Source: Lachnospiraceae bacterium (lineage in GTDB: Bacteria > Bacillota > Clostridia > Lachnospirales > Lachnospiraceae). Taken from it: a DNA stretch of 46,124 bases. Location of the stretch: contig JAEENL010000177.1 in the NCBI GenBank assembly GCA_016283775.1, positions 1 to 46,124 of the forward strand, read 5' to 3'. Positions 10-39,156 of this stretch are shown here, in pieces. A program made the translations under genes and the position numbers. A model generated the notes under the pieces. It did no database searches and was not told the origin of the DNA. It worked only from the letters and a program-made list of their open reading frames with translations. Position 1 is the first letter of the stretch; each line of letters begins with the position of its first letter.

Positions 10-1305
10 CTATTCTGAAACTATCTTTTTTCCTGTAACATATTCATAAATTATAGATTTTCTATACTTAGCAATTAATTCAAGCTGTTCTTGCTTTTGT
101 TCGATTATGGAATCTATTTCTTTACATTTTTCATCAAGGTATTCCGCTATTTTCTTTTGTTCCTCAATTGGCGGGAGTGGTATCTTGATTTTTTTGAACT
201 CCGTGGAATAAGTTCTCCATCTCATCATCATGATTCCACGACCATATTTGTAGCATTCTCCAGCCATAGCAGGAGAGCGCAGTATATAGTGGCAATAATG
301 TGGATAAATCTTATCAATATTTATCTTGTAAACATCGTAGGCGGGGCTTGTAACCCCATCATAATCGGATATGCCCATTGCGCCCATCCACGCTAAGATA
401 ATGTTAACGACAATATCATTCTTATGGACTATCTTGTATCCATCCGCATTTTGAGCGATATTACCTGATGTTTTCTCTAAATCAGCGTGCTGAACTACAC
501 CTCTATCTGTATATAAAGAAATGAGATTTACCTCTTCTAAAGGTTTATAGTTTCTTTCATTTCGGAGAGTTAATACATTTCCCAGTTTTGATACACTCCA
601 ATTTGATGGGATATCTCCTATCCAATCTGATCCACTATCCTTCATCGGAGCATTCTTATCTAACCCTTTTGTTACAGCTTCTGTGATAACAGACCGCTTA
701 TATTTTTGAAGTGTATTAATCTCTTCCTGAATATCAGCAGAAAGTGTGTCTATCTCGGTACATTTGGCGTCAAGAAATTGGGCTATACGGTTTTGCTCTT
801 CAAAAGAAGGCTTTGCCAACTTTATTGTTCCTAAGACGGTGGCAGATATTTCTTTAAATGTAGTTCCTGAACCAAACAGATTAAGAACCTCTTCATAAAT
901 ACTCAAGGAATAATAGAAGAATTTCTCACTTATTCCTTGATTGCATATAAGACCTAAACACCCTTGATTTGTACACAAAGGAACAGCTGTTAACGCTACA
1001 GAGCCAATCGGCGCCCTTTTAGATACAACAATAGTTCCCTTTGGTAGCATATGAGTACTACAAGATTTATACCCTAATGAAGAAATATTTCTTGCCCCGT
1101 TAGAAACATATATCTCTTTTGTTTTGTAATCCGCAGGTGTAATCCACAGAACATCACCATCCCACAACTCACTATTTGAACTGTCAGGCGTTGCTCCTGA
1201 TATTATTGAAAAATTATATTTCAAGGGATGGACACTCCATTTTTGAGGAACATCCCCAATCCACGAAATTCCACTATCTTTTACTTCTCTCATAACATTT
1301 ACCAT
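10..1305 (-). CDS. hsdS: Type I restriction-modification specificity subunit HsdS
   Basis: HsdS gives DNA sequence recognition to the HsdM/HsdR complex. The 431-residue protein has the normal two-half layout. Each half opens with a similar block (KDSGISWIGDVPQKWSV near residue 8 and KDSGSDWIGDIPSNWSV near 221), holds a target recognition domain, and closes with a helical spacer of the type EEQ..IA.(F/Y)LD.KC.EID. The two halves should read the two parts of a split target. The start ATG overlaps the hsdM stop by one base (TGATG), so translation is coupled; an internal ATG four codons later is a possible alternative start. It is the last gene of a leftward operon of regulator, hsdM and hsdS. 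The gene looks intact. The target sequence cannot be predicted from sequence alone. Confidence 0.95.
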   Translation of the reverse strand: MVNVMREVKDSGISWIGDVPQKWSVHPLKYNFSIISGATPDSSNSELWDGDVLWITPADYKTKEIYVSNGARNISSLGYKSCSTHMLPKGTIVVSKRAPIGSVALTAVPLCTNQGCLGLICNQGISEKFFYYSLSIYEEVLNLFGSGTTFKEISATVLGTIKLAKPSFEEQNRIAQFLDAKCTEIDTLSADIQEEINTLQKYKRSVITEAVTKGLDKNAPMKDSGSDWIGDIPSNWSVSKLGNVLTLRNERNYKPLEEVNLISLYTDRGVVQHADLEKTSGNIAQNADGYKIVHKNDIVVNIILAWMGAMGISDYDGVTSPAYDVYKINIDKIYPHYCHYILRSPAMAGECYKYGRGIMMMRWRTYSTEFKKIKIPLPPIEEQKKIAEYLDEKCKEIDSIIEQKQEQLELIAKYRKSIIYEYVTGKKIVSE

Positions 1306-3413
1306 CAGCCCCTTCCGAACAGAGTACGGATACGGTCATTCACGCTATTCTCCAATGCAGTAAAACGTTCTGCTAATACTTCACTTGCTTCGGGCTGTTG
1401 ATACTTATAGAAGTATCTTGTAAAAGGTATTTCTGCACCGGTCTTGATAACAGGCTTCTTTGCACCAAGGTCTTCTTCCCAAAACCATTTAGCATCCGGG
1501 ATATGCGGTAAGACTTCCCTTGCCATATAATCCTCGATAGTTTCATCCCAACGGACAAGCTCCACATCCTTCGAGTCCTTGTCGTAGATAATCTCTCCCT
1601 TTTTCTTACCTTTTTGCTCGGTCTGTATCTCAGCTTCCTTATCCATCACGGATAAACCATTGGCAATCTTCTCCAACAGTTTTTTATCCATATTCACATC
1701 AGCAAGAACCTTTTCAAGTACCGGAGCAAACGCACTCGGACTTAACCATTTTTCATCAGAAACAGCACCATTCAGTTTTGCAAGAATGGCTTCATAAACA
1801 GGTTTGGTTTCATAATAGTCAGAAAGAGCCTTCTGTTCCTTTGCATTAGCAGTAGTTCCCTTTTCTTCGAGTTCTGCCACTTTTGCATCATCCCATAAGG
1901 ATTTCAAGGCTCCCGATTGAAGCATATTCTGAATACGATCTTCTGTGAAACCATAACTACGCTGTAATGGTTGCATTACAGCATATTCCTTGTAGATAAA
2001 CTCGGTGTTGTCGTATATCTTACATACTTCGCTATCTTTGAACTCAGCATAAATCCGCGTAATTTCAGCACGGTCTTCAGGAGAAAACTCATTCTTCTTA
2101 TTGCCGAGAGGCTTACGGAGCTTATGATAAATCTGCGAAGCATCGATAAGTTGTATCTTACCTTTACGTTCAGGTCTTTTGTTCTTTGATAAAATCCATA
2201 CATAAGTGGCAATACCCGTGTTGTAGAACAAATCCGTAGGCATAGCCACGATTGCTTCAATAAGGTCATTCTCCAACATCCAACGGCGTATCTGCGACTC
2301 TCCTGAAGCCGTACTACCTGTAAAAAGGGGGGAGCCATTCTCGATAATCGCTGCACGTCCAAGTTTGTCATCCATCTTTGCGATGGCAGACTGCATAAAG
2401 AGAAGCTGAGAATCTCCACCCGAAGGAAGACCTGCACCCCAACGGCCTGCAAGTCCTTTTTTCGTATATTCTTCCTTAACAGCATCCTCCTGTCCAGTCT
2501 TGGCATCGGCTCCTGACCAAGGAGTACCGAAAGGCGGATTTTCTATAAGGAATCTCATTTTGGTATCGGAGAAACAATCCTCTTTTAATGTGTCGGCATG
2601 ACGGAAGTTATCTGCATCCTGTCCTTTTATAAGCATCTCAGCAAGACCCACTGCATAGGTCTGCCCCATATATTCCTGTCCGAACAGGCGGACATCTGCA
2701 GAAGGATTAAAATGCCTGATATAGCTATATGCCGTGGAAAGCATACCACCGGTTCCGCACGCCTGGTCGCATACGGTAATAACTTTTCCTTCATCAAAAA
2801 TATCATCACATCCTTCGGCGGTAAGAAGTGATACAAGGAGTTTTATTATATCTCGGCCTGTGTAAAACTGTCCGGCATCTACATTCTGATAGAAGCGACC
2901 GATCAGATTTTCGAAGATATAGCCCATTTTTATGCTGTCAAATGTTTCTATGGATAAGTCCAGTTCCGAAAAAGCCTTCACAACATTGTATAAACATCCG
3001 TCTTTATCCATCTTCTTAATATGGTCATCCATATTAAGCTCGCGGAAAATGTCCTGCACATTTGCTGAAAAACCATTAAGGTATTCTCTGAAGTTCGCTG
3101 CTATATGGTCAGGGTCGTTACACAGCTCCTTCAAGTTAAATTCACTTGTGTTATAGAACTGATATCCTGATATTTTCTGCATCGCTTTTGCCGGATGAGT
3201 GGGCGTTGTCTTATATTTAGCAACAACTTCGCCTTTGGTCTTTTCCAAAGCGCACTCAAAGCGGCGAATAATTGTCATCGGAATCACTACATCCCCATAC
3301 TTATCGGGCATGTAAGAGCCACGAAGTTTATTCGCTATACTCCATATAAAGTTTGCTTCCGCAGTAATATCAACAGGATTATCATCCCATAACACACCTA
3401 TCTGTTTAGCCAT
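1305..3413 (-). CDS. hsdM: Type I restriction-modification DNA methyltransferase subunit HsdM
   Basis: This 702-residue protein is a class I SAM-dependent N6-adenine methyltransferase. An N-terminal helical HsdM domain covers about residues 15-150. The SAM-binding motif I (ACGTGG) lies near 218-223 and the catalytic motif IV NPPF at 292-295. A FYTGRDI block near 183 fits the conserved segment before motif I. The protein is longer than the roughly 500 residues common for HsdM. The C-terminal extension, about residues 480-702, is charged and helical and may hold the HsdS-contacting part. It starts 18 bases after the upstream HTH regulator, and hsdS follows with a one-base overlap. No hsdR lies in the window; it is expected to the left. 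It could act as a stand-alone methylase if hsdR were absent. Confidence 0.95.
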   Translation of the reverse strand: MAKQIGVLWDDNPVDITAEANFIWSIANKLRGSYMPDKYGDVVIPMTIIRRFECALEKTKGEVVAKYKTTPTHPAKAMQKISGYQFYNTSEFNLKELCNDPDHIAANFREYLNGFSANVQDIFRELNMDDHIKKMDKDGCLYNVVKAFSELDLSIETFDSIKMGYIFENLIGRFYQNVDAGQFYTGRDIIKLLVSLLTAEGCDDIFDEGKVITVCDQACGTGGMLSTAYSYIRHFNPSADVRLFGQEYMGQTYAVGLAEMLIKGQDADNFRHADTLKEDCFSDTKMRFLIENPPFGTPWSGADAKTGQEDAVKEEYTKKGLAGRWGAGLPSGGDSQLLFMQSAIAKMDDKLGRAAIIENGSPLFTGSTASGESQIRRWMLENDLIEAIVAMPTDLFYNTGIATYVWILSKNKRPERKGKIQLIDASQIYHKLRKPLGNKKNEFSPEDRAEITRIYAEFKDSEVCKIYDNTEFIYKEYAVMQPLQRSYGFTEDRIQNMLQSGALKSLWDDAKVAELEEKGTTANAKEQKALSDYYETKPVYEAILAKLNGAVSDEKWLSPSAFAPVLEKVLADVNMDKKLLEKIANGLSVMDKEAEIQTEQKGKKKGEIIYDKDSKDVELVRWDETIEDYMAREVLPHIPDAKWFWEEDLGAKKPVIKTGAEIPFTRYFYKYQQPEASEVLAERFTALENSVNDRIRTLFGRG

Positions 3414-3431
3414 ATTCCTTCTCCCTATTCT

Positions 3432-4091
3432 CTAATCATTATCATTTTTCCTTGCTTCTAACGATTCCTGTAGTAAATGAGCCACCCGCTCTTTCTTTGC
3501 TCTTTCCGATTTTGATAAAGGCTTTTCATCCATCGAATAAGGGAAGTTCCATTCCCACATGTGATATTCGTGCATTATCTGCTTCTTTTCTTCTTCGGTT
3601 GAAGCATTAAAGATGTCGACTTCCATCTGCTTTCTACGGTCATACCAAGCCTTCAGGTTCTTATTCATCGTGCTGACCTTTATATCATTCTGACTTTCTC
3701 CAAATGATATGCAGATTTGGCCATTGACCTCTTGTAATCTTAAATCGTACAAGGTCTCCATTTCAAAGAAGGAGAACATAGCGCCTAAATAGCTTGCTGT
3801 CTGAGGATCTAATATAGCGCTTGTTTCAACCTCTAACGCTTCTGCTATCTGTTTACAAAGGTCAAATTTCGGGTTTCTGGCGCCATTCTCATATTGCTGT
3901 ATTCTGTTAGCATTTAATGCAGTACTGTTTTCTGCGTAGTTTTCTGCTATCTCATTTACCTTTTCAGCAAGTTCACTTTGCGATATCCCCTGTTCCTGCC
4001 TTATAGCACGGATTCTTCTACCGATACGGCTTCCCGCTGTTTCCTTATCAAAGTCTTCCGGAGCAGTTCCAAACGGATTGTAAACATACAT
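3432..4091 (-). CDS. XRE-family HTH regulator heading the restriction-modification operon
   Basis: The 219-residue protein has an N-terminal XRE/Cro-type helix-turn-helix (about residues 20-95) with the usual GISQSELAEKV and IQQYENGARNPK landmarks. Between these HTH halves is an insert (NEIAENYAENSTALNA), longer than in simple Cro-like domains. The C-terminal 110 residues are charged, fit no family I recognise, and may serve for dimerisation or ligand sensing. The start is supported by an AGGAGA site at about 4100-4105. The gene is first in a leftward operon and ends 18 bases before hsdM. By position it could regulate the restriction operon, in the manner of controller proteins, and perhaps also the divergent recombinase operon. 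That role is inferred. Confidence 0.85.
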   Translation of the reverse strand: MYVYNPFGTAPEDFDKETAGSRIGRRIRAIRQEQGISQSELAEKVNEIAENYAENSTALNANRIQQYENGARNPKFDLCKQIAEALEVETSAILDPQTASYLGAMFSFFEMETLYDLRLQEVNGQICISFGESQNDIKVSTMNKNLKAWYDRRKQMEVDIFNASTEEEKKQIMHEYHMWEWNFPYSMDEKPLSKSERAKKERVAHLLQESLEARKNDND

Positions 4092-4162
4092 ATAATTATC
4101 TCCTTTTTTTTATCTACCTTTTCATCCTAAACAGGTCCTTACAAACCTTATTCTAACACATC

Positions 4163-4291
4163 AACAACATAATAGATATAGCAAAATGCAAATTTGTTGT
4201 TAAAATAAAATATTAAAAAAATATAAAAAACAATTTTGTTATTGACAAAAGCTTTTTTGTGAGGCATTATGAAAGTAACATATTTGTTGTT
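4163..4291. promoter_or_regulatory. Repeated ATTTGTTGTT motifs between divergent element operons (candidate operators)
   Basis: The 230-base gap between the regulator and the excisionase-like gene is very AT-rich and holds an exact 10-base direct repeat, ATTTGTTGTT, at 4192-4201 and 4282-4291. An inverted near-copy, AACAACAT, sits at 4163-4170, facing the first repeat. The second copy lies just downstream of the predicted rightward promoter. Such sites between divergent operons are typical for an XRE repressor controlling both sides. The assignment to the XRE protein is inferred. Confidence 0.45.
4242..4270 (+). promoter_or_regulatory. Sigma-A-type promoter of the excisionase-recombinase operon
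   Basis: A TTGACA box at 4242-4247 is followed after exactly 17 bases by CATTAT at 4265-4270. Transcription would start near 4277, about 45 bases before the start codon of the excisionase-like gene. One copy of the ATTTGTTGTT motif lies just downstream, suited to repression. Confidence 0.65.
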
Positions 4292-4321
4292 TGCAATAAC
4301 TTTTTGTTAAAGGAGTGCCAT

Positions 4322-4513
4322 ATGAATGAGATTATAAATGACTGTCCAATGATAATGAATATCCCTGATGCAGCGAAAATCCTTGGCGTACATCCTAACA
4401 CAATCAGAAGCCTGATTAAGAGCAAAAGCCTACGCGCAGTTAGAGTCGGAAAACGATACAAAATCACAAAGAACAGTCTTTTACACTACCTCGGCGATAC
4501 CGAGGCAAATTAA
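4322..4513 (+). CDS. Excisionase/MerR-like small HTH protein
   Basis: This 63-residue protein is a winged-helix DNA-binding domain of the excisionase (HTH_17) type. The core reads MNIPDAAKILGVHPNTIRSL followed by the wing VRVGKRYKITKNSLLHYL. Such proteins act as recombination directionality factors or as small regulators in mobile elements. The start at 4322 is chosen because AAAGGAG at 4309-4315 lies six bases upstream; a longer reading frame beginning at 4259 would start before this site and upstream of the -10 box. It is first in a rightward operon with a 46-residue protein, a degenerate resolvase and the recombinase. Excisionase function is inferred from fold and place. It may instead only regulate the operon. 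Confidence 0.8.
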   Translation: MNEIINDCPMIMNIPDAAKILGVHPNTIRSLIKSKSLRAVRVGKRYKITKNSLLHYLGDTEAN

Positions 4514-4532
4514 CCGAAAGGAGAACCAACCC

Positions 4533-4673
4533 ATGGAAGAAAAACACACAACCATTTCTTTAGAAATCTTAGTCTTAAACGACCTGCTTCGTATAGACGC
4601 GATTGACAAAACCATTTATGACAAGGTTGTTCAAAGAATCTCGTCCAAAGAAAAAGATAAGCAAGCTGCTTAA
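4533..4673 (+). CDS. Small 46-residue protein of the recombinase operon
   Basis: A short open frame of 46 residues starts at an ATG with AAAGGAG eight bases upstream, and ends KEKDKQAA before a TAA stop. The product is small and charged, with a hydrophobic middle (EILVLNDLLRI) and a basic, Lys-rich end. It reads like a short helical protein, but no family is recognised. It lies 19 bases after the excisionase-like gene and 39 bases before the degenerate resolvase gene, in the same direction. Its ribosome site and its place in a tight operon are the main reasons to call it a gene. A DNA-binding or accessory role in excision is possible but unproven. Confidence 0.65.
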   Translation: MEEKHTTISLEILVLNDLLRIDAIDKTIYDKVVQRISSKEKDKQAA

Positions 4674-4712
4674 GACCTACACAATGTAATTACAAGGAGT
4701 ATAGCGAGTCTA

Positions 4713-5399
4713 ATGAAAAATACAGCGATATATCATTTTACAGACCAAAGCAACAAAAGACCTAAGATTTACAAAGACCAAATTAAAAAGCTTGAAAACT
4801 ATGCGGTTTCTGTAGATCTTGAAGTCTCTGACATTTATTGTGATAAGAGTTTGAAACGATGTGAACATACCGAATTTGAACGCTTTCTCGCTAACTCTGC
4901 ACAATATGATGCTCTTGTAACAAAAGATTTTTACCACATATCCAAAAACACCGGCAAATGCATAAACATTTTGCAACAGCTCCGGGATAAGGGAATACAA
5001 ACATACACAGTAGAAAACGGTATCTTCACCTGGGAAGATGCACCTCTGGATGAGCCTCTCCGTGTTGCAACATACACCTGCCACTTCGGTCCACCAAACG
5101 AAATGAAGGAAGTCGTCCCCGTTAAAAATGATACTCTCAAACTTTTTACGACTAAGAAAACGAATTGGACTGTTGTTGACCAATATTACGATGAAAGCCC
5201 TTGCCAAAGCGACGGCGAACAGATACAGATGATGGAACTGATAGCAAACAGTGATAAATATGATCTACTCCTCGTCCATAACCTGAATGATGTTCATTGG
5301 AGAACGGCGAACTTTTGCAAAATCCGGGAACAGCTCCAATTAGACATATATTCGCTTCAAGAAGGTTTTTTGAAATACAGAAAGGAACTCACAGTATGA
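4713..5399 (+). CDS. Tandem degenerate resolvase-domain protein, probably catalytically inactive
   Basis: The 228-residue protein seems to hold two serine-resolvase folds in a row. The first covers about residues 4-105, with a family-like pattern of QIKKLENYA, EFERFLANS..YDALVTKD and LRDKGIQTYTVENGIF. The second begins at LRVATYTCHFG near 117 and runs to the end, with YDLLLVHNLND and DIYSLQEGFL. The usual YARVS start, with its nucleophile Ser, reads IYHFTD in domain 1 and TYTCHFG in domain 2. The SRL.R arginine motif is also lost (FYHISK; LNDVHW). Strand transfer by this protein is therefore unlikely. Its TGA overlaps the recombinase ATG (ATGA), so the two are translationally coupled. A role as regulator or partner subunit of the recombinase is inferred. 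The match rests on pattern reading only. Confidence 0.7.
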   Translation: MKNTAIYHFTDQSNKRPKIYKDQIKKLENYAVSVDLEVSDIYCDKSLKRCEHTEFERFLANSAQYDALVTKDFYHISKNTGKCINILQQLRDKGIQTYTVENGIFTWEDAPLDEPLRVATYTCHFGPPNEMKEVVPVKNDTLKLFTTKKTNWTVVDQYYDESPCQSDGEQIQMMELIANSDKYDLLLVHNLNDVHWRTANFCKIREQLQLDIYSLQEGFLKYRKELTV

Positions 5400-7126
5400 C
5401 CTATGCAGATAAACTGAAATTACAAATTGATGATAAAACCGGTGCAGAACCCGTTGTTTCAGCAATATATGCACGTGTTTCCACACGTAACGAATCACAG
5501 AAGGACTCTTGCGACAATCAGATTAAATCTGCACGAGAATATCTTTCTAATTATAAAAATGTTTCGTTAACACAGAACCATGTATACAAGGATGATGGTG
5601 TGTCAGGAAAAAGTGTTGTTGGACGAATCGCTTATCAGCAACTCATGGATGGGGTACGTTCCGGAGAAATAAAACTGATTGTAGCCAAAACATGCTCACG
5701 ATTGTTTAGGGATGTTACAGAGTCTCAGGATTTTCTTAGAACTTTACTCAAAAACAACGCTGTTTTAGTCACATTAGAAGACAATCACTTTTGGGATTTC
5801 AGCATTCATTCTGAAGAATTGATGTTTACGCTTATTTCTGTGTTTACCTCGGGTACGAGTCGAACACAGAGTGATGCAGGTCATGCAGCACAGACACGAC
5901 GAATCAGAGATAAAAAACTGTTTCCAAAGGATCTAATACAAGGATTCAAATGGGATTCACAGGAAAAGGACATTATCATCGACAAGGAAACCGCACCTAT
6001 TATTGTGGATATTTTTGAGGATTACGTTTACAGAAACGGAACACCAGCTTCCATTTGTGAATCGCTCAGACAAAAGGGAATCAAGTTTCCAAAGCACAAA
6101 AGAGATGCAGATACCAGGGAACCCTACATTGCTTATGAATATATCTGCGAACGAACCGTATCGAACATGATACAAAACAGCAAATACCTTGGACTTTTCA
6201 CTGTAAATACAAGAACCAGCACTTTTATTCCCGGTGAAGAATCCATGCGGTATAAGACTAAATCTGAAGAGCAGGTTACGGTAGAGCGTCCTGATCTTCA
6301 GATAGTCGATACAGACCTCTTTGAAATGGCGCAGAGGATACATCATTCAAGAATAACAGTGTATGAGAAACCCGACCAAAAGACTGTTCAGGCACGTTTT
6401 CAAGGTTTGCATCTTTATGCCGGCAAAATTTTTTGCCCTGTCTGTGGCAAGCCATACCAATTTGGATACGCAGATAGGAAAAAGACAGTACCGGTATACC
6501 GCATTAAAAGCCATTCTGACTGCCCGAACCCTATCAGAAGCATTTACGAACATGACCTTGAAGAGATTACAAAGAAGGCTCTGAAGCAGACTATAGACCA
6601 GCAGGAAGAAGTCTGCATTACTTTGGAGAAGATTTTAACGGAGATCGTGGAAGCATCACAGAACAATGGTGACGAGATAGACAGACTGAAGAAACAAAGG
6701 GCATCGAGGGAAAAAAAGCTTGAAAACCTCATTGATCAGCTTTCCGATGACAACTTTACAGATGCAGCAAAGAAACACATTCAGACTAAGATTAACAATA
6801 TTACGGAAGAGACGGACAGACTGACAGAGGCTATTAACGATAAGGAAAACAACAAACTTGATGACTCCTATGTTACGGCGAAGCTTGCAAGTATCCGGGC
6901 AGCTATTGCAGACCTTCGGAACTTCACCAGCATCGACCGTGATAGGATCCTCAACTATATCGAAAGAATTGATATGCCCCCTAACGGAGATATCGAGATA
7001 CTCCTTAAATCTGGGCAGGTAATTGTAGCAAACGTAAACAACAACAGTGATTTCTCCGATGGAAATAGTGTAGGCAAGAAGGGAATCCAAGATGTCCTGT
7101 ATTCATGGCCTGCAGCATGTCGATAA
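5396..7126 (+). CDS. Large serine recombinase (integrase) of the element
   Basis: The 576-residue protein is a large serine recombinase that would cut and join att sites to insert or excise the element. The N-terminal resolvase domain holds YARVS, with nucleophile Ser29, and the SRLFR arginines at 102 and 105. A recombinase domain spans about 180-320, with TPASICESLRQKGIKFP. A zinc-ribbon segment starts FCPVCGKP (Cys347, Cys350) and ends SHSDCPNP, with only one Cys in the second half plus a His. A long coiled coil runs about 385-500. The start at 5396 is set by the ATGA overlap with the gene before it and an AAAGGAA site; an earlier in-frame start at 5297 lies inside that gene. The last ten or so codons and the stop lie past 7091, in host cpaF sequence read antisense. 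The gene looks active. Confidence 0.93.
   Translation: MTYADKLKLQIDDKTGAEPVVSAIYARVSTRNESQKDSCDNQIKSAREYLSNYKNVSLTQNHVYKDDGVSGKSVVGRIAYQQLMDGVRSGEIKLIVAKTCSRLFRDVTESQDFLRTLLKNNAVLVTLEDNHFWDFSIHSEELMFTLISVFTSGTSRTQSDAGHAAQTRRIRDKKLFPKDLIQGFKWDSQEKDIIIDKETAPIIVDIFEDYVYRNGTPASICESLRQKGIKFPKHKRDADTREPYIAYEYICERTVSNMIQNSKYLGLFTVNTRTSTFIPGEESMRYKTKSEEQVTVERPDLQIVDTDLFEMAQRIHHSRITVYEKPDQKTVQARFQGLHLYAGKIFCPVCGKPYQFGYADRKKTVPVYRIKSHSDCPNPIRSIYEHDLEEITKKALKQTIDQQEEVCITLEKILTEIVEASQNNGDEIDRLKKQRASREKKLENLIDQLSDDNFTDAAKKHIQTKINNITEETDRLTEAINDKENNKLDDSYVTAKLASIRAAIADLRNFTSIDRDRILNYIERIDMPPNGDIEILLKSGQVIVANVNNNSDFSDGNSVGKKGIQDVLYSWPAACR
7086..7106. other. Right attachment-site junction between element and cpaF
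   Basis: Reading cpaF leftward, its codons stay family-like up to Met-Asn-Thr-Gly-His (7106 down to 7092). The next codon, 7089-7091, is Leu, not the Asp of the conserved Gly-His-Asp-Gly-Ser motif, and the frame then runs into antisense recombinase sequence. The change at 7091/7092 marks the right edge of the element, within a few bases. The crossover dinucleotide cannot be fixed without the left junction or an uninterrupted relative. Confidence 0.7.
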
Positions 7127-7964
7127 CCTCCGGGCCTCTCACTTCTCCGACTATTATCCGGTCAGGTCGCATCCTGAGAGCCGCCTTTATGAGGTCTCTT
7201 ATCGTGACTTCGGTGCATTCTTTGGAATTTTTGTTCCTGACCTCGAGGCGCACCAGATTTTTGATATTGTTGATCTTAAGTTCCGCTGAGTCCTCGATGG
7301 TGATTATACGTTCGTCCTGTGGGATGAAATCGGAGAGAGCGTTCAGAAATGTGGTCTTGCCGCTTCCGGTGCCGCCGCAGACAAAGATGTTGTATCCTGC
7401 GATCACAAACCTGCGGAGTGAGTCCGCAGCCTCTTCACTTATCGCTCCGAGACCTATGAGTTTTTCCATCGTAAAAGGATCTTTGGCGAATTTACGGATG
7501 GTGACTATCGGACCGTTCAGTGCAACAGGCGGAAGTATCACATTCACTCGGGAGCCGTCCTTAAGGCGGGCATCCACTATGGGACTCGCCTCGTTCACGA
7601 CTCTGTTTGCATCGGCTACGATCTGCTGGATTATATCGTTCAGTTTGTTTCCGGATTCAAAGGCTTTGTCCCACTTTTTGAGCGTGCCGCCGCTCTCCAG
7701 AAAAATGTCGTTCTCACCGTTCACCATGATCTCCGTGACATCCTCACGGCAAAGTAATTCTTCAAGTATGTCCAGCCCTCTGATTGAATTGTAGACCGAA
7801 TTTCTCAGTTCTTCGCGCTCCTCCACAGGAAGGAAAGTCGTTCTGGCCTCCACCGAGACCACCCTGTCTATCTCCTCGAGCAAAGCTTCGTCCGAGATCT
7901 TTTCGGAATAGTCAAAACCCTGCAGCACCTTGTCCCTTACCTGTTTTTTCATTTCAGTCCTCAT
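7092..7964 (-). pseudogene. cpaF: CpaF/TadA-type secretion ATPase, C-terminus removed by element insertion
   Basis: The remaining 291 residues are the N-terminal and most of the ATPase domain of a Tad/Flp pilus motor ATPase. Visible are the pre-ATPase domain with EDVTEIMVNG, the Walker A box GGTGSGKTT, the Asp box IITIEDSAEL and the Walker B region DRIIVGEVRG. After MNTGH the family sequence stops; a full-length protein would go on for 100 or more residues with DGS and the His-box region. The frame continues to 7005 with about 29 unrelated, Cys-rich residues read from antisense recombinase DNA. The start at 7964 has an AGAGGTG site and overlaps the stop of the CpaE-like gene (ATGA); a GTG at 7970 is less likely. 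Pilus assembly should fail while the element is in place. The rest is expected beyond the window's left edge. Confidence 0.88.
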
Positions 7965-8833
7965 AAACACACCTCTTTGATCCTTGTGAGTATTGCTTGT
8001 TTCCCCGCATATTTCATCTGCCTGATAAATTCATTGCTCCTGACGTCACGACCTTCAGGCCCGGTCGAGACAAGATAGATTACATCGCTGCATTCAAGCA
8101 GCGCTTCCACTCCCGGCGAGAAAAAACCGCACAGGAAGACTATGTTCTCATAGCCGCCATATTGCTTGCATTCTCTTATCAGACGTTCCATTTCACCCGG
8201 AGAATACTGCCAGAGATCGGCATAATATTCCGTTCCGGCAAAATAGTCCCATCCGTCCCTCGAAGGCAGTCCCGACATCAGTTTTCGCATACCCGTCTCA
8301 TTTTTGCGCGCAGTAAACAAAAGGTCGCTGATTGTCCTCTGTTCCTGGGTCGCTTTTTCACGCCCCATGGCACCGAACAGCTCCCACGAAAGAAAAAGAG
8401 TGCGCCCTTCCCCGGACAGGCGTGTGCACAGCGCATACGCGTATCTGCATGCCGTCTCGTTGGAAGCGGGTGAAAAAACGGTATAAATGTGATTGAATGA
8501 AACTGATGTTTCGGGATTGAGTGAAAGAACAGATCTCACTATGGCCGAAGCCGATCGGAACTTGAAGATGACATCCGGCATATCGCCCGAAGGCTCTGCT
8601 TCGGGATCGTCCGACAAATAGCAAAACCTGCATTTGTCTGCCGTGATCTCCCTGTTTGAGATGTCGTCCGAAAGAAGAAGAGTAAGACTCTTTGTAGAAA
8701 GATACCCCTTGAGCTCATCGGTCGTTCTGAACGTGACCGCCCGTAGCCCAACGTCCCTGCGGGTATTAAAATAATCCGCAAGCCGTTTTGCGTAACCCGG
8801 CGAGCTGACGAGGATCCCCAATGTAGGATCCAA
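7961..8833 (-). CDS. CpaE/TadZ-like protein of the Tad pilus locus
   Basis: The protein of about 290 residues has a response-regulator-like N-terminal part (LGILVSSPGYAKRLADYF and LTLLLSDDIS) and a second half resembling the MinD/ParA-like fold of CpaE/TadZ. No clear Walker A box is present where it would be expected (YTVFSPASNETACRYA), so nucleotide binding may be lost, as in some TadZ proteins. CpaE/TadZ places the Tad pilus machine at the cell pole. The start is taken as TTG at 8833 because AGGGGTGG lies just upstream; a TTG at 8860 would add nine residues. The stop overlaps the cpaF start, which supports a joint operon. The family call rests on context as well as sequence. Confidence 0.65.
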   Translation of the reverse strand: MDPTLGILVSSPGYAKRLADYFNTRRDVGLRAVTFRTTDELKGYLSTKSLTLLLSDDISNREITADKCRFCYLSDDPEAEPSGDMPDVIFKFRSASAIVRSVLSLNPETSVSFNHIYTVFSPASNETACRYAYALCTRLSGEGRTLFLSWELFGAMGREKATQEQRTISDLLFTARKNETGMRKLMSGLPSRDGWDYFAGTEYYADLWQYSPGEMERLIRECKQYGGYENIVFLCGFFSPGVEALLECSDVIYLVSTGPEGRDVRSNEFIRQMKYAGKQAILTRIKEVCL

Positions 8834-13269: not shown

Positions 13270-14994
13270 TTATTCCGTCCGGGTCCCGTCCTCATCCTCA
13301 TTCTTCACGTAAATATGGCGGAATTCGCGTTTTGCGTTGACAAACGCCCGTCCGAGTTCGGGATCGAACTGAGTGCCGAGATGTGCTTCGATGATCTTTA
13401 TCGCATCGTCATAACTGTGATTGGGGCCGTAGTTCTTTTTGGTGCAAAGCGCGTCAAGTGAATCGACGAGTGCCATGATACGGGCTTCCACAGGGATCTC
13501 CTCGCCTTTCAGGCCATCCGGATACCCCTTTCCGTCCCAGCGTTCATGATGAAAATTTGCTATGTTTGCGGCGATCTCGCAGAACTGTTTTTCGTCGCTT
13601 TCCGCAAGGATCTTTCTTACGACTCTTGCACCTTCCGCCGCATGCTTTTTGATCTCTTCGAAATCGGACGGATCGTACTTTTCCGTCTTTCTGAGAACTC
13701 TGTCCTCAATGGCGATCTTTCCCAGATCGTGCATAGGTACGGCGCGGACCACCTTCTCAAGAAAATCGTCGTCAAATCTTTCAGGCTCGTTGTAGCGCAG
13801 ATAATCGGCAAAAAGCCCGGCAACCTTCTGAGCCCTTCCTATATGCTCACCCGAAGTGTTGTCGCGCGACTCGACGATGGTCGCAAGCCCGAGGACAAGC
13901 TGCTCCTGAAGCTTTGAGATGTCCTTTTTCTTTTCGTCGATCTTTGCTTCAAGCTCGTGATTGTAATTGTTGAGTTCCTTGAGGTAGCTGTTGGTCGCGG
14001 TAACATCCTCGATGACCACGAGGTAGCCCAGTTTCTGTCTTGAGCCGTAGCCCTTGTAGATGACATCTTTTCTGAGATTGTAATATTCTTCCTGGACTTG
14101 AACGAGCTTTTCCTCCGAACCGCCGTTCGTCTCATCGTTCAAAAGTCCCATGACATCATTGTAAAACTGGGAATCCGTGGGCTTTACGGTCTTACCGCTG
14201 GTGATCTTTCTGAGCCTCGGGAATATCTTCTTTGCGGCTTCAGTGGCGTTGATATATCGTTTTCTCATATCGAACACGATAAACGCCTCTCTCTCGAGAT
14301 TCTGGGCGGAGCTCGTGATACAGCTCGAAAGATCGTGAAGTTCTATGTCGTTTACGAGGTACAGCGTGATGAACGCCGCATAGAGGTATCCAAAGGACGT
14401 GAGCGCGACAGAAAGTTTTAATATCCTGTCAAGGAAATAGAAAAGCACTATCACAAAAGCCACGCCCATGATGTTGACCACGATGATCTTTGGTATGTTT
14501 TTTCGCACCTTCAGGGCATATCCGATAAGAAAAGCAAAGAGTATTCCGTAGATGATGACTATCGCGGTATAAAGGCTGTGAGCCGGGCCGTACTCTTTTG
14601 TGAGTATGGCATATCCGTTCTTTCTGACCAGTTGCACATTTTTGTAATAGATGTCACTGCGCCCGATAGTCAGCGCAAACCCCATTACGACAGCGGAATA
14701 GGCAAGAAGGAAGGCTTCAAGCCACTTTGGAAACCTGATCTTGCACAAGCGGGCTGCGGTGAGAAGAAGTATGAGAGGCAGAAAAATGCTGCCGAAGTAG
14801 ATTATCCTCTGGCCTTCAAGCGCAGCCGATACAGACTCGGAGCTTGCCAAAACAAGCCTTCCGAAGTTGTGCGACACAAGTGTCGCAGTGAAGACGAAAT
14901 ACAGACCCGAAATATACTCTTTTTGTCTTACCATCACGAGGAACGCCGCAAGGGACGCCGCAAAAACGATAAGATAGATGATCACAACGGTCAA
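13270..14994 (-). CDS. 7TM sensor with C-terminal HD-GYP domain
   Basis: The 574-residue membrane protein is a predicted c-di-GMP phosphodiesterase. Residues 1-220 form about seven membrane helices like the 7TM sensor part of some histidine kinases. Residues 225-340 are PAS-like (AFIVFDMRKRYINATEAA), followed by a coiled coil (about 340-365). The HD-GYP domain follows, with MHDLGKIAIEDRVL, HHERWDGKGYPDG and IPVEARIMALVDSLDAL. All key metal and GYP residues are present. The start is taken as TTG at 14994, with AGAGGT nine bases upstream; a GTG three codons later is an alternative. It lies 17 bases after a paralogue in the same direction, so they probably share an operon. The ligand is unknown. 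Confidence 0.85.
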   Translation of the reverse strand: MTVVIIYLIVFAASLAAFLVMVRQKEYISGLYFVFTATLVSHNFGRLVLASSESVSAALEGQRIIYFGSIFLPLILLLTAARLCKIRFPKWLEAFLLAYSAVVMGFALTIGRSDIYYKNVQLVRKNGYAILTKEYGPAHSLYTAIVIIYGILFAFLIGYALKVRKNIPKIIVVNIMGVAFVIVLFYFLDRILKLSVALTSFGYLYAAFITLYLVNDIELHDLSSCITSSAQNLEREAFIVFDMRKRYINATEAAKKIFPRLRKITSGKTVKPTDSQFYNDVMGLLNDETNGGSEEKLVQVQEEYYNLRKDVIYKGYGSRQKLGYLVVIEDVTATNSYLKELNNYNHELEAKIDEKKKDISKLQEQLVLGLATIVESRDNTSGEHIGRAQKVAGLFADYLRYNEPERFDDDFLEKVVRAVPMHDLGKIAIEDRVLRKTEKYDPSDFEEIKKHAAEGARVVRKILAESDEKQFCEIAANIANFHHERWDGKGYPDGLKGEEIPVEARIMALVDSLDALCTKKNYGPNHSYDDAIKIIEAHLGTQFDPELGRAFVNAKREFRHIYVKNEDEDGTRTE

Positions 14995-15011: not shown

Positions 15012-16730
15012 TCAGGAGTTCTGCTTGTCGTAATACTCTTCAAGTTCTTTTCTGCATTCAAGGAAAAACTTTACAAGTGTCGGATCGAAATGAGACCCGT
15101 CGGAGCGCTTGATTATCTTGAACGCTTGTTCGTAGGAATATGCATCTTTATAGCATCTGCGGCTCACAAGGGCGTCAAATACGTCTGCGAGCGCCATTAT
15201 ACGGGCTTCTATCGGGATCTCGGTCCCTTTCAGGCCGTCGGGATAGCCGCGGCCGTCCCATTTTTCATGGTGATAATGTGCCACATTTTCAGCAACGTTC
15301 GACAGATCCGCATCTCCGTATCCCGCGAGTACCTTTCTTACAAGTCTGGCGCCCTCTGCGGGATGTGTTTTCATCTTTTCAAACTCTTCGGTGGTATATT
15401 TGCCCTGTTTTCTAAGCACTGCATCGTCCACCATTATCTTACCGATGTCGTGCATGGGGGCGGCGATCTCTATATCGTGCAGGAGTTTCTTTGTGAGCGT
15501 GATGTTCTCTTTTTCAAGATGTACACCCTCCAGCCTCTTTGCCATGATGTGCACGACCGCACTGGTACGCTCGATATGTCCGCCGGTGCTCTGGTCTCTG
15601 CTCTCGATCATGCTTCCCATTCCGGAAACGATACTCTTTCTGATGCTCTCCGCACGGTCGGTGTTTGCCTGAACGTCCTGGCTCAGCCTTTCCTTGGAGT
15701 TTTCCATGATCTCACGTGTTTTCTTTTCGTAGGTGAGATCCCTTATCTCCACAAGATGCCCGCGCACCTGGTGCGAACGCATGTTCTCGACATTTCTCAC
15801 TCTTGCGGAAACGGTGTAATCTCCGATATCGAACGGAGGCGTCTCAGCATGTTTCTGTTCAAAAATGGGCTCATATACATTGGTGTAAAGGCTTGTGCCT
15901 TCATATTCCGAAGGCTTTGCGTCCACACGTATGTCCTTAAGTTCCGGGAATATCTCCAGAGCTTTTTCGTTGTAAGCGGTAAGCCTGTTCCTCAGATCAA
16001 ACATTATGAACGGTGTGTTTCTCAAACGTCCTTTGGTATTTATGAGGCCCATGTTCATGTCATACAGGTCGATCTCCCTGAATATCCTGAGAAAATAGAG
16101 AAGGCTCAAAGTGTAGCCGATGGGCACAAGGTCGTAATCCAGCTTTGCGGTGCGCACTCCGAAATACAGTCCCACAACGCTCACCCAGACAAGCAGAAGC
16201 GGCCAGACGAGCCCGTAGGAAAACCTGTCTCTGTCCTCAAAGGCGCTCATCGCGATTACTATGATAGCAATGAGATAAAATACGAGAAGGAAAGAAAAGG
16301 TGTTGTGAAGAGGTCCGTATTCCTTTATGAGCACTCCTATGCCATTCCTTTTTTCAAATTCGACGGTTTTGTAATATATGGGGAATATTCCCTGAGTCCA
16401 CGCACAAAAGAGCGTGAAAGTGGAAACTGCTGCAAAGATCGCTGTGAGGGACTTTGACATCTTGCTGTCGCAGATCTGCGACCAGACAATGACAAGCGCC
16501 AGCGGAAGGAAACACCCGCTGAGATATGTCAGACGGTTTCCGAGCAGCGCTGTTTCGAGATTGTCGGAGATGATGATGATGAGATAGCCGAGATTTCCGA
16601 CCGCGATCAGCAGAGCTATGCACAAATGATTGATATTGTGCTGTTCGCCGCCGAAGATAAGCGAAACGACATATCCGACGGATATCAGAAGGGCAATGAC
16701 GTATATGATTGTAACGGTTTCCGCAGTCAT
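15012..16730 (-). CDS. 7TM sensor with C-terminal HD-GYP domain, paralogue of its neighbour
   Basis: This 572-residue protein has the same layout as the gene after it: about seven membrane helices (1-220), a PAS-like segment (PFIMFDLRNRLTAYNEKALEIFP), a helical linker, and an HD-GYP domain with MHDIGKIMVDDAVL, HHEKWDGRGYPDG and IPIEARIMALADVFDAL. The outer segment TQGIFPIYYKTVEFEKRNGIGVLIKEYGPLHN aligns in order with the neighbour's, so the two arose by duplication and may sense related signals. The start at 16730 is chosen because the membrane domain begins there; an ATG at 16775 would add 15 residues. The product should hydrolyse c-di-GMP. The two may form homo- or hetero-oligomers, which is inference. 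Confidence 0.85.
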   Translation of the reverse strand: MTAETVTIIYVIALLISVGYVVSLIFGGEQHNINHLCIALLIAVGNLGYLIIIISDNLETALLGNRLTYLSGCFLPLALVIVWSQICDSKMSKSLTAIFAAVSTFTLFCAWTQGIFPIYYKTVEFEKRNGIGVLIKEYGPLHNTFSFLLVFYLIAIIVIAMSAFEDRDRFSYGLVWPLLLVWVSVVGLYFGVRTAKLDYDLVPIGYTLSLLYFLRIFREIDLYDMNMGLINTKGRLRNTPFIMFDLRNRLTAYNEKALEIFPELKDIRVDAKPSEYEGTSLYTNVYEPIFEQKHAETPPFDIGDYTVSARVRNVENMRSHQVRGHLVEIRDLTYEKKTREIMENSKERLSQDVQANTDRAESIRKSIVSGMGSMIESRDQSTGGHIERTSAVVHIMAKRLEGVHLEKENITLTKKLLHDIEIAAPMHDIGKIMVDDAVLRKQGKYTTEEFEKMKTHPAEGARLVRKVLAGYGDADLSNVAENVAHYHHEKWDGRGYPDGLKGTEIPIEARIMALADVFDALVSRRCYKDAYSYEQAFKIIKRSDGSHFDPTLVKFFLECRKELEEYYDKQNS

Positions 16731-16880
16731 ATTCCGATCCCAAAGGTAAATTATTACAATTTTGAAATATAACATAATTGTAACATTTTATCATTTTAGC
16801 ACCCCTCCTCGCGTTAGTCAACGCTTTGAGGCCTTTTTTCTGCCATTGTTAAAAGGTTGTCAGGCCTTTTTGGGAACGGT

Positions 16881-16909: not shown

Positions 16910-16990
16910 AAAATGTTGAGATAGGGTCGTATGAGTTTCAATACTCCGGGAGCGAGAGAGCTCTTTGATAAAACCGTCAAGAGGTCCAAA

Positions 16991-17467
16991 ATGGGAAAGA
17001 AATCCACAAAAGAAAACAAAAATATCTATCAGGAAGTCCGTGAATCCCGCAATCTGACACGTGAGCACGCCGGCGACCTCATGGGATTCGTTTCAGCCGA
17101 CCGCATCGAAAAGATCGAGAGCGAACGTTCCCCCGCACGTCCGGATGAAGTTCTCGCAATGTCCGAGTGCTACAATTTTCCTGAACTCTGCAACTACTAC
17201 TGCACTCACGAATGCAGTATAGGAAAGAAATACCAGAAAGAGGTCCGTCCCAAGGAACTCTCACAGATCGTGCTTGAGACGCTTGCATTTTTTGACAAGT
17301 TTGACAATCTTAAAAACCGTTTTGTTGAGATCACGGTGGACGGAAGGATCACTGACGACGAATTAAAAGACTTCCGCGAGATACAGAATAATCTCGAAAG
17401 GCTCTCAAGCGCCGTGGATTCTCTGAAATTCTGGATGGAAAAGGCAACCAGGAAGATGGAGGACTAA
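16991..17467 (+). CDS. HTH regulator with a Cys-rich motif
   Basis: The 158-residue protein starts with an XRE-like helix-turn-helix (about residues 12-65: NIYQEVRESRNLTREHAGDLM and the DRIEKIESERSPARPDE recognition end). A Cys-rich stretch follows, with Cys residues spaced C-x7-C-x3-C-x3-C (ECYNFPELCNYYCTHEC), then a helical C-terminal half. The start at 16991 has AAGAGGT five bases upstream; an in-frame ATG at 16931 would add 20 residues. The four Cys residues could bind zinc or an Fe-S cluster and make it a redox-sensitive regulator, but this is inferred. Its stop lies four bases before the HD-GYP gene, so the two are co-transcribed and probably act together. Confidence 0.75.
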   Translation: MGKKSTKENKNIYQEVRESRNLTREHAGDLMGFVSADRIEKIESERSPARPDEVLAMSECYNFPELCNYYCTHECSIGKKYQKEVRPKELSQIVLETLAFFDKFDNLKNRFVEITVDGRITDDELKDFREIQNNLERLSSAVDSLKFWMEKATRKMED

Positions 17468-17471
17468 CTTC

Positions 17472-18764
17472 ATGAAAAGATCCATTTCAATATTCTGTAT
17501 AGTCAACCTGTCTCTTTTCCTCGTGGGCTTTCTGGCAATCCAGATCACAAGGTTCTATGTGGACAAGCTGTCAAAAGAGGACCGGTACAGTATCATAAAC
17601 GTCAATGCCATAAACAACGCCTCCTCTTATGATTACCCCGAGACCGATGTGGGACAGCTTCCGGACATCGGCTCCGTCCCTACCGCGAATGTCTGCACGG
17701 CCGACTGCATCACCGAAAAAATGTGGCTGGACAATGACAAAGCCGGACACAGCATGATAGGCGCGCAGTACCTCATAGAGTTCAAAAACATCACGGACAA
17801 GGCCTTTACGGACTGGAAGCTCACATTTGTCGTTCCCGAAGGGTATGTCATCGATTTTGACAAGGATGTATGGGACGGTAAATTCACCGCAAACAACAAC
17901 CTTCTCATGATCTCTTCCATCGGTTACAACAGCAGGATCGAGCCCGGCACGATGCGCTCTGTGGGTTTTGTAATGCTCACGAACGGCAGGGCGTACAAGC
18001 TCAAAGAGATGATCATCATGTATCATCAGGAATTCCTTCTCAAGGACACTCTTTCCTATCATCTCTGCCTTTGGGGACTTGCCGCTCTTGTCCTTTTTGA
18101 CATCATCTGGATAATCGCCACCGCATACTACTGGCAGTACAGAAAAAAAGCCGAGCACGACCGCGAGATCATTGCCCAGGCTCTGAATGCCTTTGCCTCC
18201 ATCATCGATGCAAAGGACGAATATACAAAAGGCCACTCCACAAGAGTCGCCGCTTACGCAAAAGAGATAGCAAGGCGTATGGGAATGAACGAGGACGACC
18301 AGCGAAGGCTCTGCTACATCGGTCTTCTACACGACATAGGAAAAGTCGGCATACCGGATGGTATACTCGGAAAGCCCGGGCCGCTCACTCCCGAGGAGCG
18401 CGAGCTTGTTAAGCGCCACGTTGTCATAGGCGGAGACATCCTGAAGGATTTCACCTCCGTAAAAGGAATAGAGCTCGGCGCAAGATATCACCATGAGCGC
18501 TACGACGGAAAAGGATATTGCGAAGGCATCGCCGGCGAGTCGATCCCCATCGAGGCCCGCATCATCTGCGTGGCAGATTCCTTTGACGCCATGAGTTCAG
18601 CAAGATGCTACCGTCCCAAGGCTTCATTGCAGTACACCATCATGGAGCTCAGGAACAACCTTGAGAGGCAGTTTGATCCCGTTGTCGCACAGCACATGCT
18701 CGACATGATCGACGACGGATTTGCGCCCATAAAATCGCTTGACGACATAGATCTCGATCTGTAA
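17472..18764 (+). CDS. Membrane HD-GYP protein with a CBM2-like extracellular domain
   Basis: The 430-residue protein has a membrane helix at about 5-27, an outer domain (28-192), a second membrane helix (about 197-222), and a cytoplasmic HD-GYP domain (about 236-415). The outer domain (about 97-172) resembles a family 2 carbohydrate-binding module: FKNITDKAFTDWKLTFVVPEG, a Trp near 134 and YNSRIEPGTMRSVGF, in the family order. The HD-GYP part holds LHDIGK (His287, Asp288) and HHERYDGKGY, but the GYP triad reads GYC (348-350). It should be a receptor that couples an outer sugar polymer to c-di-GMP breakdown, as inference. It follows the Cys-rich HTH gene by four bases; the GGAGGA ribosome site overlaps that gene's end. 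Confidence 0.8.
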   Translation: MKRSISIFCIVNLSLFLVGFLAIQITRFYVDKLSKEDRYSIINVNAINNASSYDYPETDVGQLPDIGSVPTANVCTADCITEKMWLDNDKAGHSMIGAQYLIEFKNITDKAFTDWKLTFVVPEGYVIDFDKDVWDGKFTANNNLLMISSIGYNSRIEPGTMRSVGFVMLTNGRAYKLKEMIIMYHQEFLLKDTLSYHLCLWGLAALVLFDIIWIIATAYYWQYRKKAEHDREIIAQALNAFASIIDAKDEYTKGHSTRVAAYAKEIARRMGMNEDDQRRLCYIGLLHDIGKVGIPDGILGKPGPLTPEERELVKRHVVIGGDILKDFTSVKGIELGARYHHERYDGKGYCEGIAGESIPIEARIICVADSFDAMSSARCYRPKASLQYTIMELRNNLERQFDPVVAQHMLDMIDDGFAPIKSLDDIDLDL

Positions 18765-27895: not shown

Positions 27896-27929
27896 AAAAA
27901 AACAAAAGGCCTTTACATCAGCCTTTTGT
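27896..27929 (-). terminator. Intrinsic terminator overlapping the end of the HTH-HD gene
   Basis: On the minus strand ACAAAAGGC (27929-27921), a 10-base loop and GCCTTTTGT (27910-27902) are followed by a run of T (to 27896). The first arm lies inside the last codons of the HTH-HD gene, so the stop codon falls in the loop. The spot also separates it from the convergent AraC gene. Confidence 0.85.
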
Positions 27930-28728
27930 AGATATCGAGCATGCTCTCGATCTGGTATTGCAGAAGCCATGCGGCGTTGTTGTATTTAGGTTCGGCTTTT
28001 ACGACCTTCAGTAACCGGGGATAATAGTCCTCGGTTTCTTTTATCATCCTGTATATCCTGTCACGGCTGAGTCCCCATGACATGGTGGTAAGGTTATTGC
28101 AGCGGTCGATGCATTTTATGAGCGCGGCCTTGGGATTTGCGGCTATAGCGTCATAGTATTTTTCCATCATCTTATCACGGTTTGCATCGGTGGTGTCTTC
28201 ATGAGTGAGAAGCCGCACAAGTTCCCGTGTTTCATCGTTCACCGGGAGGTCTCCCACTTTCTTTCCGCAGTCTTCGACAACATCGTGAAGCATGCAGGCA
28301 GCTATGATCTCATCTTCGAGAATACCCATGGAAAGCGCGTGGCAGGCAAGGTTAAGCGGATGATAGATATAGGGCACGGAAGACCTTTTTCTTTTCTGCC
28401 CGTCGTGAGCCTCCACCGCGTAATCGACGGCCTTGTAGGCATTTTTCATCCCGTGTGTTCCGGCCGCGGTCTTTACATAAGTCTTCATGTGTTCCCAGTT
28501 GTAGATGGCCTGCTTTGTCTTAAAAACATTTGCGCGCTCCTCGACCACCCTGGAGACCGAAACGTCAAACAGCTCGGCAAGTTTTAAGAGCTTGTCCGTA
28601 TCGGGCTTGTATTCATCGCGTTCCCATGACGATACGGCCTGAAAGCTTACGCCTACGCTTTCGGCCACCTGCTCCTGTGTGAGCTTCCGCTCTTCTCTCA
28701 AGGTCTTGATGTTTGTACCCATGCTCAT
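27913..28728 (-). CDS. HTH regulator fused to a SpoT/MESH1-like HD hydrolase domain
   Basis: The 271-residue protein joins an XRE HTH (residues 5-62: IKTLREERKLTQEQVAESVG and VSFQAVSSWERDEYKPD) to an HD domain (about 95-260). The HD part has the order seen in (p)ppGpp hydrolases: AHDGQKRK..PYIYHPL, then CMLHDVVED with the HD pair, then LIKCIDRCNNL matching the KLADRLHN segment. No synthetase domain is present. It may break down alarmones or a related nucleotide, and also bind DNA. The residues RSSVPY differ from the usual SGEPY, so activity is not certain. The start has GGAGGTG upstream. It stands alone with its own promoter and terminator. Confidence 0.8.
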   Translation of the reverse strand: MSMGTNIKTLREERKLTQEQVAESVGVSFQAVSSWERDEYKPDTDKLLKLAELFDVSVSRVVEERANVFKTKQAIYNWEHMKTYVKTAAGTHGMKNAYKAVDYAVEAHDGQKRKRSSVPYIYHPLNLACHALSMGILEDEIIAACMLHDVVEDCGKKVGDLPVNDETRELVRLLTHEDTTDANRDKMMEKYYDAIAANPKAALIKCIDRCNNLTTMSWGLSRDRIYRMIKETEDYYPRLLKVVKAEPKYNNAAWLLQYQIESMLDIYKRLM

Positions 28729-35278: not shown

Positions 35279-36619
35279 CTATTCCACTATCTCTCCCGCA
35301 AACATGACAGCCGTGGTATCGTTGCAGGTCGTATAGATGAAGAACGAAAACGGCCTGTCCGCTGTGAACACCTTGGGTTCTTTTGGTATGGCGGCCGCTC
35401 CATCATTCATCATTATCGCGGTGACCGCCGCTGCCTCAACGCCGTCCTCGTCAAGCTTTATACGTGTCTTCTGGATTATATCACTTACAAAGATCTGATG
35501 ATCGATCATTCCGGAAAAATCAGCTCTGTCAGCGTCAAAAGCAAGCTTCACGCCGTTTTCCTTAAGAAAATCCACAAGTTCTCCGCACGCAAATTCCGTT
35601 TCAAGGTCGAGCTTCGGTATGGTGACCTTCACCTGTTCATTTTTCGCGTTGGAAAGCTTCCCTGAGAGATCCTTTGTGGAACCCAGCACAAATGCCATGT
35701 AGACACCGCCGTCCATCGGGAGGACCACAAGCTTTGTCTCCTCGTCCTCATAGTAGGAAAACAGTTCCGACGTGGACATAAACTCCTTTTTTACCGTGTT
35801 CCCGTCTTTTTTGTAAAAATCGCCTTCCCGTGTCAGTCCCTTTTCAAAGCTGTTCACCCATGAATCCTTAAAATACAGCGCGTTCATCAGCACCACCGCC
35901 AGATCCTCGGTGGGATAATTGTCAGGAAGGAGGCGCGGTATCATATGTTCTGTCTTTATGTCAGCCCATTCGTTGATACGCTGTATTGCGTTTTCTTCGG
36001 TAAACGACCGATATTCCGCCGAATAGTTCTTTTCTATATTTTCACGGTATGCTTCTTTAAAATCTTCCTTTACACGCTCAGCTTTCCAGACTGAGTTTGC
36101 GACACGCAAGGCGCGGAACGGCTCCTTGGTGCCTTCAGGTATCCAGCCCTGCTTTTTTTCGCTCTTGAATCTCTCTATGTCGCGCTCAAGTCCCTCTGCA
36201 AAATGTTCCACAAAGCCGTTAAAATCAAGGCAAAACGCTATCCATTCCTCTTCCGACTCCACTCCGAACGCCTTTAACAGTTCTGCCTTTGTTTCCCCTT
36301 CGGCTCCCGCCAGCAGCAGGCCCAGCGCATAGCGGAAAGACAGCGGCGAGACCATATAGTTTCCGCTCGTGTGCTCAGAAACGAATGAAAGCAGCTTTTC
36401 ATCGAACGATGTTTCGGTCATCGTGCTTTTTATGCTCTTTGTCTCTATGATGTTCAGCTCTTTCGCCCAGACATCATCATTCTTTTCTTTTCCCGGATCC
36501 TCCCCCGTACTCTCTTTCGCACCACATGACGCAAGTCCGGCGACAAGCATTACCGCAGAAAGCATCAGAGCGATCGTTTTTGCACATTTCTCAAACAATT
36601 TGCCATTACCCTTTTTCAT
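35279..36619 (-). CDS. Serpin-family protease inhibitor, predicted lipoprotein
   Basis: The 446-residue protein has a signal peptide with the lipobox LASCG, so Cys32 should be lipidated and the protein anchored outside the cell. The rest is a full serpin fold: MVSPLSFRYALGLLLAGAEGET, RVANSVWK, VVLMNALYFKDSW, and the reactive-loop hinge GVEAAAVTA near 400, then FTADRPFSFFIYTT and AVMFAGEIVE. The Ala-rich hinge is the kind needed for loop insertion and inhibition. The bait segment reads NDGAAAIPKEP, small residues that would suit elastase-like proteases, as inference. It may protect the cell from host or rival proteases. It lies 49 bases before the GH31 gene in the same direction. Confidence 0.92.
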   Translation of the reverse strand: MKKGNGKLFEKCAKTIALMLSAVMLVAGLASCGAKESTGEDPGKEKNDDVWAKELNIIETKSIKSTMTETSFDEKLLSFVSEHTSGNYMVSPLSFRYALGLLLAGAEGETKAELLKAFGVESEEEWIAFCLDFNGFVEHFAEGLERDIERFKSEKKQGWIPEGTKEPFRALRVANSVWKAERVKEDFKEAYRENIEKNYSAEYRSFTEENAIQRINEWADIKTEHMIPRLLPDNYPTEDLAVVLMNALYFKDSWVNSFEKGLTREGDFYKKDGNTVKKEFMSTSELFSYYEDEETKLVVLPMDGGVYMAFVLGSTKDLSGKLSNAKNEQVKVTIPKLDLETEFACGELVDFLKENGVKLAFDADRADFSGMIDHQIFVSDIIQKTRIKLDEDGVEAAAVTAIMMNDGAAAIPKEPKVFTADRPFSFFIYTTCNDTTAVMFAGEIVE

Positions 36620-38980: not shown

Positions 38981-39156
38981 TTTCCCCTCCGCGAAACGTC
39001 ATTTTACAGTATTATATCCTTTTCAAATCTTAAAATAAACTAAAATCGTATTTTCACAACAAATACTCATTTTCAAATGACCGATTCCATGATATGATGA
39101 CATTGACAGGGTTGCGGGAAATGTTGCATCAGGGGAAAACATTCACGGAGAACGGT

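Follow-up and report, generated by a model that had tools for sequence, protein, structure and literature searches.

A Lachnospiraceae membrane protein joining a family 2 carbohydrate-binding module to an HD-GYP domain, a putative glycan-gated c-di-GMP phosphodiesterase

Apart from the RsgI system, little is known, to our knowledge, of how gut Firmicutes sense polymeric glycans directly. The RsgI anti-sigma factors of Clostridium thermocellum place a carbohydrate-binding module (CBM) outside the cell as a polysaccharide sensor, within one membrane-crossing protein (PMC4711584). The receptor described here is built likewise but is not homologous to RsgI, which differs in its CBM3/PA14/GH10 outer domains, its wall-spanning segment and its sigma-factor output (PMC4711584); no Pfam match to the N-terminal sigma-binding domain of RsgI was found in the receptor, whose cytoplasmic part is an HD-GYP domain. 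The CBM2s of cellulases (EngD of Clostridium cellulovorans, Xyn10A/Cex of Cellulomonas fimi) have the same fold and strand order as the outer domain of the receptor and share its core Trp (W115) and its ligand Trp pair (W85, W134); in the receptor, however, the module stands between two membrane helices, is fused to a signalling enzyme, not to a hydrolase, and carries a loop insertion after W85 that makes this loop 9 residues longer. The HD-GYP c-di-GMP phosphodiesterases PmGH and PA4781 share fold and catalytic residues with the receptor, which differs by a GYC in place of GYP and by its CBM2 input domain. DvhD of Desulfovibrio vulgaris is also a membrane protein with an outer sensory domain and an HD-GYP domain, but its outer domain is a dCache, it contains a PAS domain and its role is that of a c-di-GMP receptor (PMC13090378). 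The nearest HD-GYP relatives are the membrane-bound Reg_prop/Y_Y_Y HD-GYP proteins of Lachnospiraceae (e.g. L007, 983 aa), in which a propeller and Y_Y_Y part of about 800 residues occupies the outer place where the receptor has CBM2.

The window, that is, the whole stretch of DNA analysed, comprises positions 1 to 46,124 of the forward strand of contig JAEENL010000177.1 from a Lachnospiraceae bacterium (GCA_016283775.1). The gene of the CBM2/HD-GYP transmembrane receptor, delineated by open reading frame, Pfam and an AlphaFold2 model, extends over 17472..18764, exactly as given in an earlier note on this DNA; like all features of the receptor listed below it lies on the + strand, it starts with ATG just downstream of a GGAGGA (AGGAGG-like) motif, and it encodes 430 aa. 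The computed domain order is helix, CBM2, helix, HD-GYP. A short and positively charged N-end precedes the first membrane helix (17487..17555, about residues 6-28), a hydrophobic stretch within helix 2-36 of the full-length model (mean pLDDT 79). A 45-residue linker of low model confidence leads to the outer CBM2 domain (17687..18029, residues 73-186; structural match 73-184, model strands 75-186). The second membrane helix (18066..18134, about residues 199-221) is seen both as a hydrophobic stretch in the sequence and as a helix in the model, where it forms with the cytoplasmic stalk a single continuous helix, 194-248. The HD-GYP domain (18189..18686, residues 240-405) follows, with H287/D288 and GYC at 348-350. 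The two hydrophobic stretches flank the outer region, in agreement with the earlier proposal of an outer domain between two membrane helices.

The outer domain belongs to CBM family 2 and has the CBM2 fold. PF00553 (CBM_2) matches residues 97-173 of the full protein with 33.5 bits (E 5.7e-8), and a search with the outer region alone gives E 3.7e-9. This match is above chance because it exceeds the curated Pfam cut-off of 24 bits, and it is supported by hhalign (99.7% between receptor and cellulase CBM2 profiles) and by fold comparison. When a profile built from seven related outer domains was run against all PDB sequences, it picked out the CBM2 of EngD (E 3.2e-8) and the CBM2a of C. fimi Xyn10A (1exg, E 2.4e-5); with the cellulase CBM2s included in the profile, the respective values were 5.8e-13 and 8.3e-11. 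The outer-domain profile also recovers the CBM2s of Lachnospiraceae GH5 cellulases, one of them in this genome; CBM2 relatives were absent from the viral contigs scanned. In the full-length model, where the CBM2 fold is predicted, not solved, at a pLDDT of about 60-78, the best solved match of the outer domain is the EngD CBM2 (3ndy, Z 11.3, rmsd 2.0 A over 100 residues), C. fimi CBM2 structures match with Z 10.4 (6qfs) and Z 8.7 (1exg), and unrelated beta sandwiches rank lower (Z 8). Both the profile matches and the predicted beta sandwich thus bear out the CBM2-like domain of the earlier note, which had put forward structure prediction as the check. Lipocalin matches were obtained from a model of the outer domain alone, built on two aligned sequences (pLDDT 47), and were discarded as meaningless.

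The same architecture occurs in 39 proteins from 35 genomes, essentially all Lachnospiraceae. By length they fall into two groups: in the shorter proteins (about 400-445 aa) the CBM2 is plain, whereas in the longer ones (about 450-490 aa) an insertion follows the W134 strand. A tree of the HD-GYP domains only, comprising the receptor candidates and 48 other HD-GYP rows, unites 39 of the 40 candidates in one clade (support 97/83), next to which stand the Reg_prop/Y_Y_Y HD-GYP proteins; the fortieth candidate (L044) was rejected as a member, its HD-GYP domain falling outside the clade. The receptor is present in at least 31 of the 397 sampled Lachnospiraceae genomes, which makes it more than a single-genome curiosity. 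Only two further genomes outside the family (G550 and G512) were found in an order-level sample, with the longer form and by match pattern only, and among 398 genomes of the phylum there was no full receptor match outside the family. The genome analysed here encodes a second CBM2-type HD-GYP receptor (L092, on G000:C115), of the longer form with the insertion.

In C. fimi CBM2a, W17, W54 and W72 form a surface-exposed strip which binds cellulose (PMC5935602). The receptor has W85 (17724..17726) as the equivalent of W17 and W134 (17871..17873) as that of W54, each present in 38 of the 39 receptors, and Y152 (17925..17927) at the position of W72, where 23 of the 39 have Tyr, as does the EngD CBM2. 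In a joint alignment this W-W-Y set is the same as in the Lachnospiraceae cellulase CBM2s and EngD. The earlier note had named one Trp and one Tyr: aromatics do occupy the CBM2 ligand positions, but they are two Trp and one Tyr. Of the 118 outer-domain columns of the 39 receptors, the most conserved is that of W85, followed by that of W134, and both are invariant when the cellulase CBM2s are aligned alongside, while the identity of the outer domains to that of the receptor in the window is only 19-32%. CBM-like sandwiches are often adopted as structural domains, and this, like the low identity among the members, would suit a CBM2-derived domain for protein-protein contact or dimerisation that binds no glycan and in which W85 and W134 serve folding or the dimer contact. 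We hold this to be unlikely, since the two most conserved Trp are those that correspond to exposed ligand residues of CBM2a (PMC5935602) and they do not vary in the CBM2s of bona fide cellulases from these bacteria. Exposed Trp residues that are kept despite the divergence are the best available evidence of a glycan ligand, to which they point on sequence grounds. The loop insertion after W85 and the presence of Tyr at the third place in no more than 23 of the 39 receptors speak against it.

The inner domain matches HD_5 (E 8e-36), and in the model it resembles PmGH (4mcw) with Z 26.7. With the residue roles taken from PmGH (PMC4159591), the equivalent pairs (receptor/PmGH) are D249 and D183, Y251 and E185, H255 and H189, H287/D288 and H221/D222, K291 and K225, H316 and H250, H340/H341 and H276/H277, Y349 and Y285, C350 and P286, D369 and D305, and D372 and D308, so that all the mapped residues are kept except E185 and P286. 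Seven of the eight PmGH metal ligands are in place, the eighth, E185, being Tyr in the receptor. Tyr at this place marks the Y/F subfamily of HD-GYP proteins, for which a binuclear centre is predicted (PMC4159591); by its sequence the receptor falls in this subfamily and its centre is predicted to be binuclear. The motif HHERYDGKGYC is of the HHExxDGxGYP type, and the canonical GYP triad is replaced by the GYC that had been noticed earlier. GYC appears to be a tolerated variant because the P286A exchange does not substantially lower the activity of PmGH (PMC4159591) and because the third residue of the triad varies among the 39 receptors (P in 33, C in 2, N in 2, M in 1, S in 1); on the same grounds we rejected the view that GYC denotes a dead enzyme. 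GYC is also found in the neighbouring Reg_prop HD-GYP proteins sampled, while its frequency in one homologue search is biased, the query peptide itself having contained GYC. With the catalytic set complete, the inner domain is apparently an active HD-GYP.

Signalling could also run from inside to outside, with an HD-GYP domain that mainly binds c-di-GMP and thereby controls the outer CBM2 (its grip or its contact with a partner), in the manner of DvhD and LapD, which act on events in the periplasm. DvhD is indeed a membrane HD-GYP protein which serves as a c-di-GMP receptor (PMC13090378), and its HD-GYP domain is among the top structural matches of the receptor model; yet the catalytic residues are all retained in 37 of the 39 receptors, unlike in a pure receptor, and no partner protease or adhesin is encoded next to the gene, so that we regard this as quite improbable.

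We propose instead, on the basis of sequence and model, that the protein is a two-helix membrane receptor that probably acts as a glycan-gated c-di-GMP phosphodiesterase. The outer CBM2, which would be a copy of the module in the GH5 cellulases of the bacterium, would bind a beta-linked glycan via W85, W134 and Y152; soluble plant-derived chains and the cell's own matrix polymer are the candidate ligands. Binding would move the second membrane helix and the stalk helix continuous with it, and the shift of the stalk would alter, from outside in, the activity of a cytoplasmic HD-GYP dimer. This dimer would hydrolyse c-di-GMP, rather than another cyclic dinucleotide, and so might take the cell from attachment to motility or back; glycan binding may lower c-di-GMP, as the earlier note suggested, or raise it. 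Control of attachment versus swimming by c-di-GMP is plausible because the genome encodes 37 GGDEF domains, two PilZ proteins and six flagellins. No c-di-GMP-I riboswitch was matched in the genome by a search that matched no control either.

Only some 10 residues tie the CBM2 domain to the second membrane helix, so it must lie near the membrane surface, under the wall of this Gram-positive cell. From a place under the peptidoglycan it follows that a soluble glycan, or a nascent polymer of the cell itself, is a likelier ligand than an insoluble cellulose fibre, which would hardly be within reach of the module; this limits the direct sensing of plant polysaccharide suggested earlier. The ligand might even be the cell's own exopolysaccharide (e.g. 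nascent cellulose) and no plant glycan at all, in which case the receptor would be a feedback sensor of the matrix. A CBM2 held on the membrane under the wall is where a nascent polymer emerges, and matrix synthesis is usually under c-di-GMP control, but several genomes with the receptor carry cellulases, and we consider a purely matrix-directed role possible though doubtful. Whichever of the two the ligand, a glycan-gated receptor would probably tell the cell of nearby plant or matrix sugar polymers. The receptor is only weakly associated with GH9 genes (p 0.005 for any match, p 0.11 for strong matches, uncorrected for phylogeny). The genome analysed here encodes a GH5 cellulase with a CBM2. 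The chances are about even that this receptor family of gut Lachnospiraceae arose by the moving of a cellulase CBM2 onto an HD-GYP enzyme, which would then read beta-glycan directly at the membrane into c-di-GMP breakdown.

No description that links an HD-GYP domain or c-di-GMP with a CBM, a CBM2 or a cellulose-binding domain was found in the open full-text literature, and carbohydrate-binding modules go unmentioned in a census of the sensory inputs to c-di-GMP signalling from 2022 (PMC8846402). Both domains are of known kinds, but a conserved family of receptors that combines them appears to be undescribed. The novelty claimed in the earlier note thus holds for the open literature searched, although among genomes of the Lachnospiraceae such a fusion is common. 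If the origin from a cellulase CBM2 and the direct reading of beta-glycan are true, a class of c-di-GMP sensory proteins is missing from the current lists, and if the proposed function is true, 39 receptors with two named ligand residues are at hand for the study of how the fibre degraders of the gut choose between staying at and leaving a glycan source.

A gene encoding a Cro/C1-like HTH protein (16931..17467, + strand) ends 4 bases upstream of the receptor gene, and the two are probably cotranscribed. The HTH protein is about 70-75% identical across the genus, and elsewhere its gene adjoins ABC exporter genes, not the receptor. The pairing is retained only in the sister genome G005, a Lachnospiraceae MAG from horse faeces; G001, G003, G004 and G006 carry the HTH gene without the receptor, so we rejected the two genes as a fixed pair. 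In G005 the receptor orthologue (L003, 4001-5251) lies at the same locus, adjoining the HTH gene. Among the 39 receptors, L003 is the only one in which both Trp are gone (replaced by Q and E) and also the only one without the catalytic Lys (K291N). As this orthologue lacks the aromatics, not all members of the genus have kept the function of the receptor. The joint loss of Trp and Lys, a single case read from sequence, is what a coupled function would give when the receptor falls into disuse.

Genes related to cyclic dinucleotides are abundant in the window. On the - strand, back to back with the receptor operon, stand two HD-GYP genes in tandem (13270-14994 and 15012-16775), whose products have a HisKA_7TM region at the N-terminus, and there are an HDOD protein (36803-38026) and a PAS-GGDEF-EAL protein (39094-40848). 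At 27913-28728 (- strand) an HTH domain is fused to an HD_4 (RelA/SpoT-type hydrolase-like) domain. The region 10-7970 encodes two serine recombinases as well as a type I restriction system (hsdS, hsdM-like), and its right end adjoins the gene of a T2SSE/CpaF-type ATPase, which is cut at position 244 of the 370 in the profile; this region is probably a mobile island integrated in the ATPase gene. The - strand at 35279-36619 encodes a bacterial serpin (Pfam Serpin, E 1.5e-68) whose N-terminus resembles that of a lipoprotein.
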